DNA of 64,000 bases from Chlorobium sp. Its GTDB lineage: Bacteria > Bacteroidota > Chlorobiia > Chlorobiales > Chlorobiaceae. The DNA is taken from the NCBI GenBank assembly GCA_005862285.1, contig SZXW01000003.1:186001-250000 (forward strand). Reading direction: 5' to 3'. Positions 15,497-22,168 of the stretch are shown here, one piece after another. How positions within the stretch are numbered: position 1 is the first letter of the stretch; each line of letters begins with the position of its first letter. The position numbers and the translations under genes were made by a program. The notes beneath the pieces were generated by a model that was not told the origin of the DNA, ran no database searches, and worked only from the letters and a program-made list of their open reading frames with translations.

Positions 15497-15588
15497 GCAT
15501 GTGATTTTTTTTGAAGGTACGATTTATTAAGTATATTGAGCTCGTATGTTCCTGTGTACAAGTCAATAACCCTAAATATCAGTATCAT

Positions 15589-15789
15589 ATGGCTGAAGAA
15601 ATGAAATCTTCCGGGAGTGCTGGTGATGTTGTCAAAGGTGATTTTTCAACGATCCTGGTTGGCGTAGGTTCACTTCTTGACAGTGCTCTCACTCCTCTTG
15701 GCAAGCTGGTTGCCGAGACTCTCGACTCCCTGGCCGGAGTCGCGAAGCAGATCCTTGAAGGCGTCAACACCACGCTCGGCAACAAGTAA
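15589..15789 (+). CDS. Small amphipathic protein, possibly a CsmB/CsmF-like chlorosome envelope protein
   Basis: A 66-residue protein without a signal peptide. After a polar N-terminus (residues 1-20) come two amphipathic Ala/Val/Leu segments: STILVGVGSLLDSALTPLGK and LVAETLDSLAGVAKQILEGV, ending TLGNK. This two-part pattern with a central Pro-Leu-Gly and a short Lys end resembles the CsmB/CsmF group that coats chlorosomes, but I match it by character, not by a clear motif. The ATG at 15589 is used; the open frame upstream (to 15511) has no other good start. It stands alone, with a strong hairpin after it. Confidence 0.45.
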   Translation: MAEEMKSSGSAGDVVKGDFSTILVGVGSLLDSALTPLGKLVAETLDSLAGVAKQILEGVNTTLGNK

Positions 15790-15836: not shown

Positions 15837-15875
15837 TTCAGGCAAGCTTTTCAATAATTGGAAGGCTTGCCTGAA
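15837..15875 (+). terminator. Strong hairpin after the csm-like gene
   Basis: TTCAGGCAAGC (15837-15847) pairs with GCTTGCCTGAA (15865-15875), and the stem nearly extends through TTTTC/GAAG. A T run does not follow closely (ACTATTTAT), so it may be a terminator or a 3' mRNA stabiliser. It lies 48 bases after the stop codon. Confidence 0.55.
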
Positions 15876-15962: not shown

Positions 15963-18900
15963 ATGGCTGATAAATTTGCAGAGTATCCCTCCAATGTATC
16001 ATACAGTGCTGTGGAGGCCGATGTACTGGCTCACTGGAATGAGAACGGAATTTTCAGGAAAAGCCTCGATAAAAAACCCGCAGGACGCATATACTCGTTT
16101 TATGAAGGCCCTCCGACGGTAAACGGCAAACCCGGTGTACACCATGTATTCAGCCGTACCATCAAGGATGTGGTCTGCCGCTACAAAACCATGCAGGGCT
16201 ACCGTGTACCCCGTATGGCGGGCTGGGATACCCACGGGCTTCCTGTTGAAATTTCGGTCGAGAAGAAACTCGGCCTGAAAAACAAGGCCCAGGTCGAAGA
16301 GTATGGTGAGGGTGAGTTCAATGCCGAAGCACGCTCCCTCGTTTACCATCATATCGACGACAACCGGGAAGGATGGGGAAAACTTACCGAGGAGATGGGG
16401 TACTGGGTCGATATGGACCACCCCTACATAACTTGTGAGAACAACTATATCGAATCGGTCTGGTGGGCGCTCAAGACCATTTTCGAAAAAGGGCTGATCT
16501 ACAAGGATTACAAGATCGTTCCTCAGGACCCGAAATCCGAGACGGTTCTCAGTTCGCACGAGCTTGCCCTCGGGTACCGCGAAGTGAAAGATCCGAGCAT
16601 CTATGTGAAGTTCAGGCTGAAAGGTTCCGGTGAATCGTTCCTGGTCTGGACAACCACACCATGGACACTCATTTCAAATGTAGCTCTCTGCGTCGGCCCT
16701 GATATCGATTATGTGAAGGTCCGGAACAGCGAGACCGGGGAGGTGCTGATCCTTGCCCAGTCGCGCCTGCAGGTGCTTCTTGAGAAGAACGAAGCTGGAG
16801 ATTCGCTCTGGCAGGTAACCGGAAGCATGAAAGGCCGCGATCTCGAAGGCACGTCATATGAGCCTCTTTTCACCTATATGCAGCCATCGAGGAAATGCTG
16901 GTATGTCGCTTCCGGGCCTTTCGTATCGACGGGGGACGGAACCGGTATCGTGCATATAGCTCCGGCATTCGGTGCGGACGACTACGAACTTGCCAAAAAA
17001 TACGACCTTCCGATGCTGCAGCCGGTGGCACGCAACGGGTGCTTCACTTCCGAGGTGAGCGATTACGAAGGAGTGTTCTTCAAGGATGCCGATCCCGATA
17101 TCATCCGCCGGCTCAAGGAGGCAGGAAAGATCTACCGCAAGGAGACCATTACCCATACCTATCCTTTTTCATGGCGATATGATGTGCCTGTGATTTACTA
17201 TGCAAGGGAATCCTGGTATATCAGAACGACCGCCATTGCCGACCGGATGGTGGAGCTGAACAAAACCATAAACTGGTGCCCGCCCGAAATCGGGACGGGA
17301 CGTTTCGGCAACTGGCTTGAAGAGAACAAGGACTGGGCGCTTTCACGCGAGCGCTTCTGGGGTTCACCGCTTCCGCTCTGGGTTTCCGGGGACTTTTCAA
17401 TCGGTGACGGATGCGAGTCCGGAAAGATTTTTGCAATCGGTTCTGTTGCCGAGCTGCGGGAGGGTTTCATCGATATCGATGGTGAACGCTACCTTCTCGG
17501 TGAAGCACTCGACAAGGGTCTGGTCGAGCTCGACCTGCACAAACCGTTCGTTGACCGCATCTATTTCATCAGGGATGGCAAACGTTTCCACCGTACGCCT
17601 GAGCTGGTCGATGTCTGGTTCGACAGCGGTTCGATGCCCTTTGCCCAGCTCCATTACCCGTTCGAGAACCGCGAACTCTTCGACAGTACCTTCCCGGCCG
17701 ATTTCATTGCCGAGGGGGTTGACCAGACCAGGGGATGGTTTTATACTCTTCATGCGATCGCCACGCTGATATTCGACAAACCGGCATATCGCAACCTCAT
17801 CGTGAACGGCCACATTCTCGACCGAAACGGCCACAAAATGTCGAAATCGAAAGGGAATGTCGTCGATCCTTTCGAAACCATGGAACGTTACGGCGCGGAC
17901 GCCCTGCGCTGGTACTTGCTTGTGACAAGTCCTCCGTGGAGGCCGAAATCCTTCAATGCCGACGAAATAGAGGAAGAGCAGCGGAAATTCTTCCGTGCCT
18001 TCATCAACAGCTACAACTTCTTTGTGCTCTATGCCAACGTCGACGGTTTCCGCGGTTCGGAACCTCCGATTCCCGTCGGCGATCGCTCCGAGCTTGACCG
18101 CTGGATACTGTCCTCCCTTAACACACTTGTCGGAGCGGTCCATTCGCGCATGGAACATTATGACCTGACCGGCGCGGTAAGGCTGATAAACGAATTCATT
18201 GTCGACGATCTGTCGAACTGGTATATCAGGCGTTCACGCAAGCGGTTCTGGAAAAGCGACATGGGACAGGACAAGATCGCCGCATACCAGTCGCTCTATA
18301 CCTCGCTCGAAACGCTTGCAAGGCTCCTTGCTCCATTCACGCCGTTCATTTCGGACCGTATCTGGCTGAACCTGAACGATGTCAGCGGGCTCGAGCAGCA
18401 AAAGTCCGTTCACCTCGCTGATTTTCCGGTGATGGACAACGCAGCGATCGACCGCCCGCTCGAGCGGCGCATGAAGAAAGCCCAGATCATCACTTCACTG
18501 GTGCGCACGATGCGGGAGAAGGCTTCCATCAAGGTGCGTCAGCCGCTCAAGAGGATCCTGCTTGCCATCGAGGATGCTGCAGCGAGGGAAGAGTACTCAT
18601 TGGTCGCTGATATCATTCTTGAAGAGGTGAATGTCCAGAAAATAGAGTACATTGAAGAAGAGGGTTCGGTTATCAGCAAGAAAGTGAAGCCGAATTTCAA
18701 AGCCCTCGGCCCCCGTTTCGGTAAAGACATGAAGATGCTTGCAGAGTCCATCAGGTGTATGAGCCACAAGCAGATTGCCATTCTGGAAAAGGAGGGCAAG
18801 ACAATGCTCGATGTTCAGGGAAATGTTTTTGAAGTGCTGCGAGAAGATGTCGAGATCGTTCACGAAGATATCGAAGGATGGCTTGTCGCTTCCGATGAAG

Positions 18901-19220
18901 CACACGGCATCATGGTCGCTCTCGACACCGAGATGAACGATGAGCTTGAAATGCTTGGTCTGTCGCGCGAAATCGTGAGCCGCATCCAGTCGCTTAGAAA
19001 AGAGAGCGGCCTCGATATCACCGACCGTATTACGCTTGCAATCGATGGTTCGGCAAAACTTCTCGATGCGGTGAAACGAAATGATGCGTATATTAAGTCT
19101 GAAACCCTTGCAACGGAGCTCACGGCTTCCTTACTCGATCCATCATCAGCGGCAGGCGGAAAAGAAGAGTCTGTTAACGGTGAAATCTGCCGGATATCAC
19201 TTGAAAAAAATGCGGGGTAA
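15963..19220 (+). CDS. ileS: Isoleucyl-tRNA synthetase, type 2 (IleRS2)
   Basis: Charges tRNA-Ile. At 1085 residues, with C-terminal domains unlike those of E. coli IleS and no C-terminal zinc cysteines in view, it belongs to the eukaryote-like IleRS2 group, which is typically resistant to mupirocin. KMSKS is at 625-629. The class I ATP signature, normally H-x-G-H, reads P-G-V-H-H: G58-V59-H60-H61, so the first and third positions are exchanged. [34 protein letters not shown] and VDVWFDSG mark the catalytic core, and [15 protein letters not shown] the anticodon-binding domain. The gene is single and starts at 15963. Confidence 0.95.
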
Positions 19221-19279
19221 TCGTATACTAAAAATCGGTTTTTTTAAAGCATTTGTTAGAATCAGCAAACAGGTGGAAT

Positions 19280-19717
19280 ATGGCTACTAAAAAAAGCAGC
19301 AGTGCCTCCAAGAAGGAAAACGAAATTATCGACGAACCGGTTCTGACCAAGACCTATTTAACCGACGATGAGCTCGAGCACTTCCGGCAGATCCTGCTCA
19401 AAAGGCGGGACGAGGTGCTTCGCGATCTGGATATTCTGCGTTCATCGCTTTCCGATGAAAACGTGGAAGATTCGATCAATTCCAATTATTCCATGCACAT
19501 GGCTGATCATGGCACCGAAACAATGGACCGTGAACAGCGTTTCATGTTCATAGCCCGAGACGAGAAGTATATTGGCTATATCGACCAGGCCCTCGACAGG
19601 ATAAGGAACAAGACCTACGGCATCTGTATTAAATCCGGCAAGCCTATTCCGAAGAAAAGGCTGGAAGCGGTTCCCCATACCGCTGTCAGGATCGAGTTCA
19701 AGCAGGGTAAAAAGTAA
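19280..19717 (+). CDS. DksA/TraR-family regulator without zinc cysteines
   Basis: A 145-residue protein of the DksA/TraR family, which enters the RNA polymerase secondary channel and, with ppGpp, tunes promoters. A long helical pair (YLTDDELEHFRQILLKRRDE ... FIARDEKYIGYIDQALDRI) leads to the usual RNKTYGICIKSGKPIPKKRL. A normal finger has four Cys; only the first remains (YGIC), the second is Ser, and the last pair is replaced in TAVRIEFKQGKK. This matches the zinc-less forms of the Bacteroidota/Chlorobiota. The ATG at 19280 follows AGGTGG by three bases and beats the upstream start at 19253. Confidence 0.85.
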   Translation: MATKKSSSASKKENEIIDEPVLTKTYLTDDELEHFRQILLKRRDEVLRDLDILRSSLSDENVEDSINSNYSMHMADHGTETMDREQRFMFIARDEKYIGYIDQALDRIRNKTYGICIKSGKPIPKKRLEAVPHTAVRIEFKQGKK

Positions 19718-21500: not shown

Positions 21501-22025
21501 ATGGCATTAACGGCAAAAAAAGATCAGAGGCCTCCGGGCCCTTTTATCTGGATATCAGTAACCCTGCTTTGGGGGACGGTTTTTTTCTTTACCTCGATTT
21601 TCATGCTCAAGGCAGCTTCGGATCTGCTGAGGCAGGGCTTTTTCAATCCGTCCTGGCGTGAAATTTTCAGTGTTTACGGAATTCATGCAGCAATACTGGT
21701 AGTGTTCGCTCTTGCAGCCATGCTGATGAAGCGGGTAATCGATCCCGGAAGCACGAAGCAGGTGCAGCGGTGGCAGGACATCAACGAAGGAAAAGGGGAG
21801 AAGATTTTCATTTCCTTCGCAGGAAGCATAGCCACGAGCTTTTTCTTTACCGGTCTAACGGCTGCGAATTTTTCCCTTGCGGCGAGAATATTTGATCTGA
21901 CGGTCGAATTTTCCGTTCCTGCGATTTTCCTTGCGGCACTGTTCAATATCGCGGCGGGGCTTGCCGCGTCTCTCATTGTCGGAATTATTTTCCTTGTGGG
22001 GAAGGTCGGAAACAGGAAAGGATGA
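21501..22025 (+). CDS. Membrane protein of unknown function
   Basis: A 174-residue protein with four hydrophobic helices at about residues 15-40, 56-78, 103-126 and 132-166, and a polar loop between the second and third (VIDPGSTKQVQRWQDINEGK). The N-terminus is basic and polar, so it is probably inside. I do not recognise a family. It has no partner gene: the next feature is a tRNA on the other strand, and a bidirectional terminator follows. Codon use looks like that of the neighbours. Confidence 0.7.
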   Translation: MALTAKKDQRPPGPFIWISVTLLWGTVFFFTSIFMLKAASDLLRQGFFNPSWREIFSVYGIHAAILVVFALAAMLMKRVIDPGSTKQVQRWQDINEGKGEKIFISFAGSIATSFFFTGLTAANFSLAARIFDLTVEFSVPAIFLAALFNIAAGLAASLIVGIIFLVGKVGNRKG

Positions 22026-22095: not shown

Positions 22096-22168
22096 TGGAG
22101 CTAAGGAGACTCGAACTCCTGACCCTTTGCATGCCATGCAAATGCTCTACCAACTGAGCTATAGCCCC
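22096..22168 (-). tRNA. tRNA-Ala (GGC anticodon)
   Basis: The minus strand reads GGGGCTA-TA-GCTC-AGTTGGTA-GAGC, then an anticodon stem TTTGC/GCAAA enclosing ATGGCAT (anticodon GGC), a variable loop, and the T arm AGGAG-TTCGAGT-CTCCT with acceptor TAGCTCC and discriminator A. The acceptor has the G3-U70 pair that marks alanine tRNAs. CCA is not encoded. It reads GCC and GCU codons. There is no rRNA operon next to it, so it is a single tRNA gene. Confidence 0.96.

Follow-up and report, generated by a model that had tools for sequence, protein, structure and literature searches.

The exchange of the first and third residues of the class I HXGH signature in isoleucyl-tRNA synthetases of type 2 (IleRS2) is already known, having been described in 2023 by Brkic et al. 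(PMC10485003). In their survey, 86 of 163 prokaryotic IleRS2 carried the exchanged form G/AXHH and 77 the form HXGH; the exchanged motif was termed broadly distributed, and at least two origins were inferred for it. GXHH was absent from the IleRS1 enzymes of that survey, and an engineered swap in IleRS1 was inactive. The kinetics reported there come from the Priestia megaterium, Thermus thermophilus and Deinococcus radiodurans enzymes, the structural steps from P. megaterium IleRS2. For the natural D. radiodurans enzyme (DrIleRS2, ALHH), which carries the exchange without catalytic cost (kcat 45.5 per s), the mupirocin Ki is 6.6 mM and drops 823-fold on reversion to HVGH. Introduction of GVHH raised the Ki from 0.20 to 35 uM in T. 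thermophilus IleRS2 and from 1.08 to 460 uM in the P. megaterium enzyme, swaps in both directions changing the Ki about 200- to 820-fold; in the engineered enzymes kcat fell up to about 10-fold and KM was raised. Crystal structures in the same work showed that the N-epsilon-2 of the third-position histidine occupies the site from which the first histidine usually acts, that the displaced helix tip of IleRS2 is what allows this third histidine to be tolerated and, by modelling, that it clashes with mupirocin (PMC10485003).

A natural case of the exchange lies in a stretch of 64,000 nucleotides from a Chlorobium sp. genome of 2.6 Mb in 15 contigs, referred to here as the window (Table 1). The ileS gene is an uninterrupted frame whose product scores 937.8 bits against the NCBIfam isoleucine-tRNA ligase model, above the cut-off of 621.4, and contains the class I catalytic domain. 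In HMMER comparisons with PDB chains, the top match was 8c8w, the GVHH chain of P. megaterium IleRS2, at 872.6 bits, and chains of IleRS1 scored far lower (8c9f, 365.2 bits; 1ffy, 349.4 bits). Together with the DUF5915 C-terminus and the motif HYPFE, defined as an IleRS2 marker in PMC4861432, these scores identify the product as an IleRS2. Its nearest named relatives are those of Chlorobiaceae MAGs (at most 96% identity, L136) and Chlorobium ferrooxidans (86%), which bears out the preliminary description in assigning the DNA to a green sulfur bacterium. The IleRS fragment 1wk8, to which the editing region was aligned, is the CP1 editing domain.

Table 1. Features of ileS and its surroundings in the window.
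Feature	Position	Strand	Residues	Basis or detail
Hairpin of 18 pairs, then T-rich stretch, upstream of ileS	15837..15875	+		hairpin search
ileS, type 2 isoleucyl-tRNA synthetase (IleRS2)	15963..19220	+	1085 aa	TIGR00392; best PDB relatives are IleRS2 chains
Class I signature, exchanged form	16134..16145	+	G58-V59-H60-H61	codons GGT GTA CAC CAT
CP1 editing-domain region	16569..17165	+	203-401	aligned to 1wk8 (IleRS fragment), E 8.8e-35
HYPFE, eukaryote-like/IleRS2 marker motif	17652..17666	+	564-568	read in sequence
KMSKS, second class I signature motif, intact	17835..17849	+	625-629	read in sequence
Anticodon-binding domain PF08264	18096..18554	+	712-864	Pfam match
C-terminal domain DUF5915, PF19302	18609..19208	+	883-1082	Pfam match
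DksA/TraR-type zinc finger protein, directly downstream of ileS	19253..19717	+		PF01258

Directly upstream of ileS, a small ORF (15511-15789, + strand, 92 aa) ends before the strong hairpin, which is likely its terminator; terminator-like sites were overall no commoner than in shuffled sequence, and only this long stem is persuasive. The small ORF matched no Pfam family with confidence, HAMP_2 falling just under the cut-off; it may resemble a small chlorosome envelope protein. On the other side, the order ileS-dksA/traR recurs in Parabacteroides and Riemerella. A tRNA gene detected with Rfam (22096-22168, - strand) is flanked by the ORFs at 21501 and 22323.

The preliminary description, made from the letters of the window, had read the exchanged motif at residues 58 to 61 and an intact KMSKS at 625 to 629, and both readings, as well as all of its coordinates, proved correct. 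With glycine at position 1, histidines at positions 3 and 4 and KMSKS preserved, the segment matches the pattern of the G/AXHH subgroup. It stands in gapless register with HVGH of T. thermophilus IleRS (1ile), with HVGH of P. megaterium IleRS2 (8c8u) and with GVHH of the engineered mutant (8c8w), and a comparison of the short motif segment with PHVGHAQARSYKD (T. thermophilus IleRS) and PHVGHALGRTIKD (P. megaterium IleRS2) was likewise gap-free. Since the alignment to these crystallised enzymes runs without gaps, no other segment supplies the ATP-binding histidines, the possibility on which the earlier reading might have foundered. The residues Gly1, His3 and His4 are moreover the same in every relative examined, including those from genomes with only about 45-50% identity, and GVHH is therefore not the product of chance or of a sequencing error. 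Taken together, a sequencing or assembly error, a pseudogene or a different ATP-binding segment is rejected as having negligible probability, nothing having been found in its favour, given the long intact frame, its standing as the sole IleRS, the identity of the motif in relatives and the gapless register.

In the whole genome, a single locus exceeded the TIGR00392 cut-off; weaker matches were ValRS, LeuRS and other class I synthetases. With only one IleRS encoded, the GVHH enzyme must, on gene content, be active and serve translation.

The distribution of the motif was uniform: one IleRS was read in each of the 148 genomes sampled from the GTDB phylum, and all 148 carry GXHH (106 GIHH, 41 GVHH and 1 GMHH). 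A genome obtained twice (G095) was counted once, and a locus missed by the motif pattern (L199) was included after direct inspection showed that it reads GIHH. No reversion to HXGH was seen in these 148 enzymes. The named loci gave the same picture, 79 of 79 being GXHH (58 GVHH, 16 GIHH, 5 GLHH); there were 80 such loci, all from Chlorobia/Ignavibacteria or ‘Bacteroidetes’ MAGs, and 79 include the N-terminus. At the DNA level, 98 genomes of the window's class were screened with a degenerate pattern for the GXHH segment, and 94 matched. All 74 genomes with a completeness of 90% or more and a contamination of 5% or less were among them; completeness in the four without a match is 81-88%. GXHH is thus fixed across the sampled phylum, and the Chlorobium copy is an ordinary member of a phylum-wide state. 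Because the motif is invariant there, a green sulfur bacterium carrying it is to be expected, and the earlier suggestion that such a bacterium would widen the known spread was overstated, all the more as the motif had been termed broadly distributed in 2023. Its universality suggests that GXHH most likely goes back to an ancestor shared by the whole phylum and did not arise by local adaptation.

A mobile resistance gene was also considered and was rejected: the ileS genes of Parabacteroides and Riemerella filed under plasmids read GIHH in a chromosome-like context, and two other IleRS2 genes that are plasmid-borne, those of Staphylococcus hominis (mupA) and Sutcliffiella, read HAGH. The two records concerned, Parabacteroides distasonis NZ_OY725767.1 (L244) and Riemerella NZ_CP072187.1 (L245), are labelled plasmid and carry ileS-dksA/traR-lspA along with other housekeeping genes; they look like chromosomal pieces.

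A separate irregularity was seen in Chlorobi bacterium AM_0510, where an in-frame TAG follows 135 codons of ileS and the homology runs on past it (L032:1501-1905, L129:3362-3766). The two loci apparently belong to one genome, which comes from an uncultured organism, and the TAG reflects either a true nonsense mutation or a fault of the assembly.

The reading that we hold with high confidence is that ileS of the window is the housekeeping gene for IleRS2 in a green sulfur bacterium akin to Chlorobium, and that its product has the natural GxHH form and works by the published mechanism. By homology, the N-epsilon-2 of H60 would lie at the place of the first histidine of HxGH and support isoleucine activation, replacing that histidine in the stabilisation of the transition state, and the bulky side chain of H60 would clash with mupirocin and exclude the drug. 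A Ki higher by two to three orders of magnitude would be expected from such a clash, reaching the millimolar range in natural enzymes. An AlphaFold model built from 36 sequences starts a helix at residue 59, as expected, although its core, with pLDDT <50 in several active-site segments, is too poor for the active-site geometry to be judged from it. By analogy with the enzymes studied, the motif gives good grounds to predict mupirocin hyper-resistance for the Chlorobium IleRS2; a literature search turned up neither aminoacylation nor mupirocin measurements on an IleRS from Chlorobia or Bacteroidota. The statement in the preliminary description that the exchanged motif had been reported in some IleRS and linked to very high mupirocin resistance agrees with the 2023 account (PMC10485003), and its addition that this comes without loss of activity holds for natural DrIleRS2 but fails for the engineered swaps.

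Two explanations of the cause of the exchange, and of the cause only, deserve consideration. Fixation of GXHH as an adaptation to mupirocin-like inhibitors of IleRS that green sulfur bacteria or their ancestors encountered would accord with the hyper-resistance that the motif causes in other IleRS2 enzymes (PMC10485003), but inheritance accounts for an unreverted, phylum-wide fixation across very different families just as well as ongoing selection does, and the present data do not tie drug exposure to the motif; we regard this explanation as rather unlikely. The exchange may instead be catalytically neutral or of slight benefit, with drug resistance as a by-product, an explanation that we hold to be somewhat less likely than not. 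The fixation of the motif in whole groups and the unimpaired turnover of natural DrIleRS2 speak for it, whereas the losses in kcat and the raised KM of the engineered swaps indicate that the change is not trivially neutral (PMC10485003).

Whatever its cause, the exchanged motif is evidence that even a signature among the most conserved in translation enzymes is open to rearrangement; intrinsic hyper-resistance to mupirocin is predicted from it. What the present case adds is only the phylum-wide count: GXHH appears to be fixed in all of the GTDB phylum that was sampled, and mupirocin should therefore inhibit IleRS poorly in the whole group.

The sole ValRS of the same genome, encoded outside the window (G000:C9, about 154684-157398; L003:139-2853), departs from the class I signatures too, reading TLGH for HxGH and KLSKS for KMSKS. 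Its segment PPPNVTGSL-TLGH was aligned to HMGH of T. thermophilus ValRS, so the first HIGH histidine is lost, and none stands at position three. A DNA pattern for TxGH ValRS matched 43 of the 148 phylum genomes, HxGH was found in 90 and neither in 15; the TxGH genomes comprise 35 of the 37 sampled from the window's order or nearer, and 8 others of the phylum. A search of the accessible literature for a TLGH valyl-tRNA synthetase yielded no paper, no title or abstract being clearly on point. We would suggest, tentatively and with considerable doubt, that in green sulfur bacteria both of these sister synthetases, IleRS (GVHH, with a replacing histidine) and ValRS (TLGH, with no replacing histidine), do without the first HIGH histidine. 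Provided that the TLGH form proves to be new to the literature and to have full activity, Chlorobia would offer a second natural route to class I catalysis without this histidine, perhaps with the threonine in its role.

Compared with known enzymes, the Chlorobium IleRS shares the class I catalytic core with bacterial IleRS1 (P. megaterium 8c9e, S. aureus 1ffy) but differs in its scores (365 bits against IleRS1, 872 against IleRS2) and in its GXHH, which no IleRS1 of the 2023 survey carried. With the HXGH enzymes of type 2 (P. megaterium 8c8u, T. thermophilus 1ile and MupA) it has the type and the domain order in common, being about 40% identical to MupA, whereas these read HVGH or HAGH and the T. 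thermophilus and P. megaterium enzymes have reported mupirocin Ki values of about 0.2-1 uM. The G/AXHH enzymes of Streptomyces griseus (SgIleRS2) and D. radiodurans belong to another phylum, and DrIleRS2 reads ALHH against GVHH in Chlorobium; with them the Chlorobium enzyme shares the type 2 assignment, the histidine at position 3, the glycine or alanine at position 1 and KMSKS.
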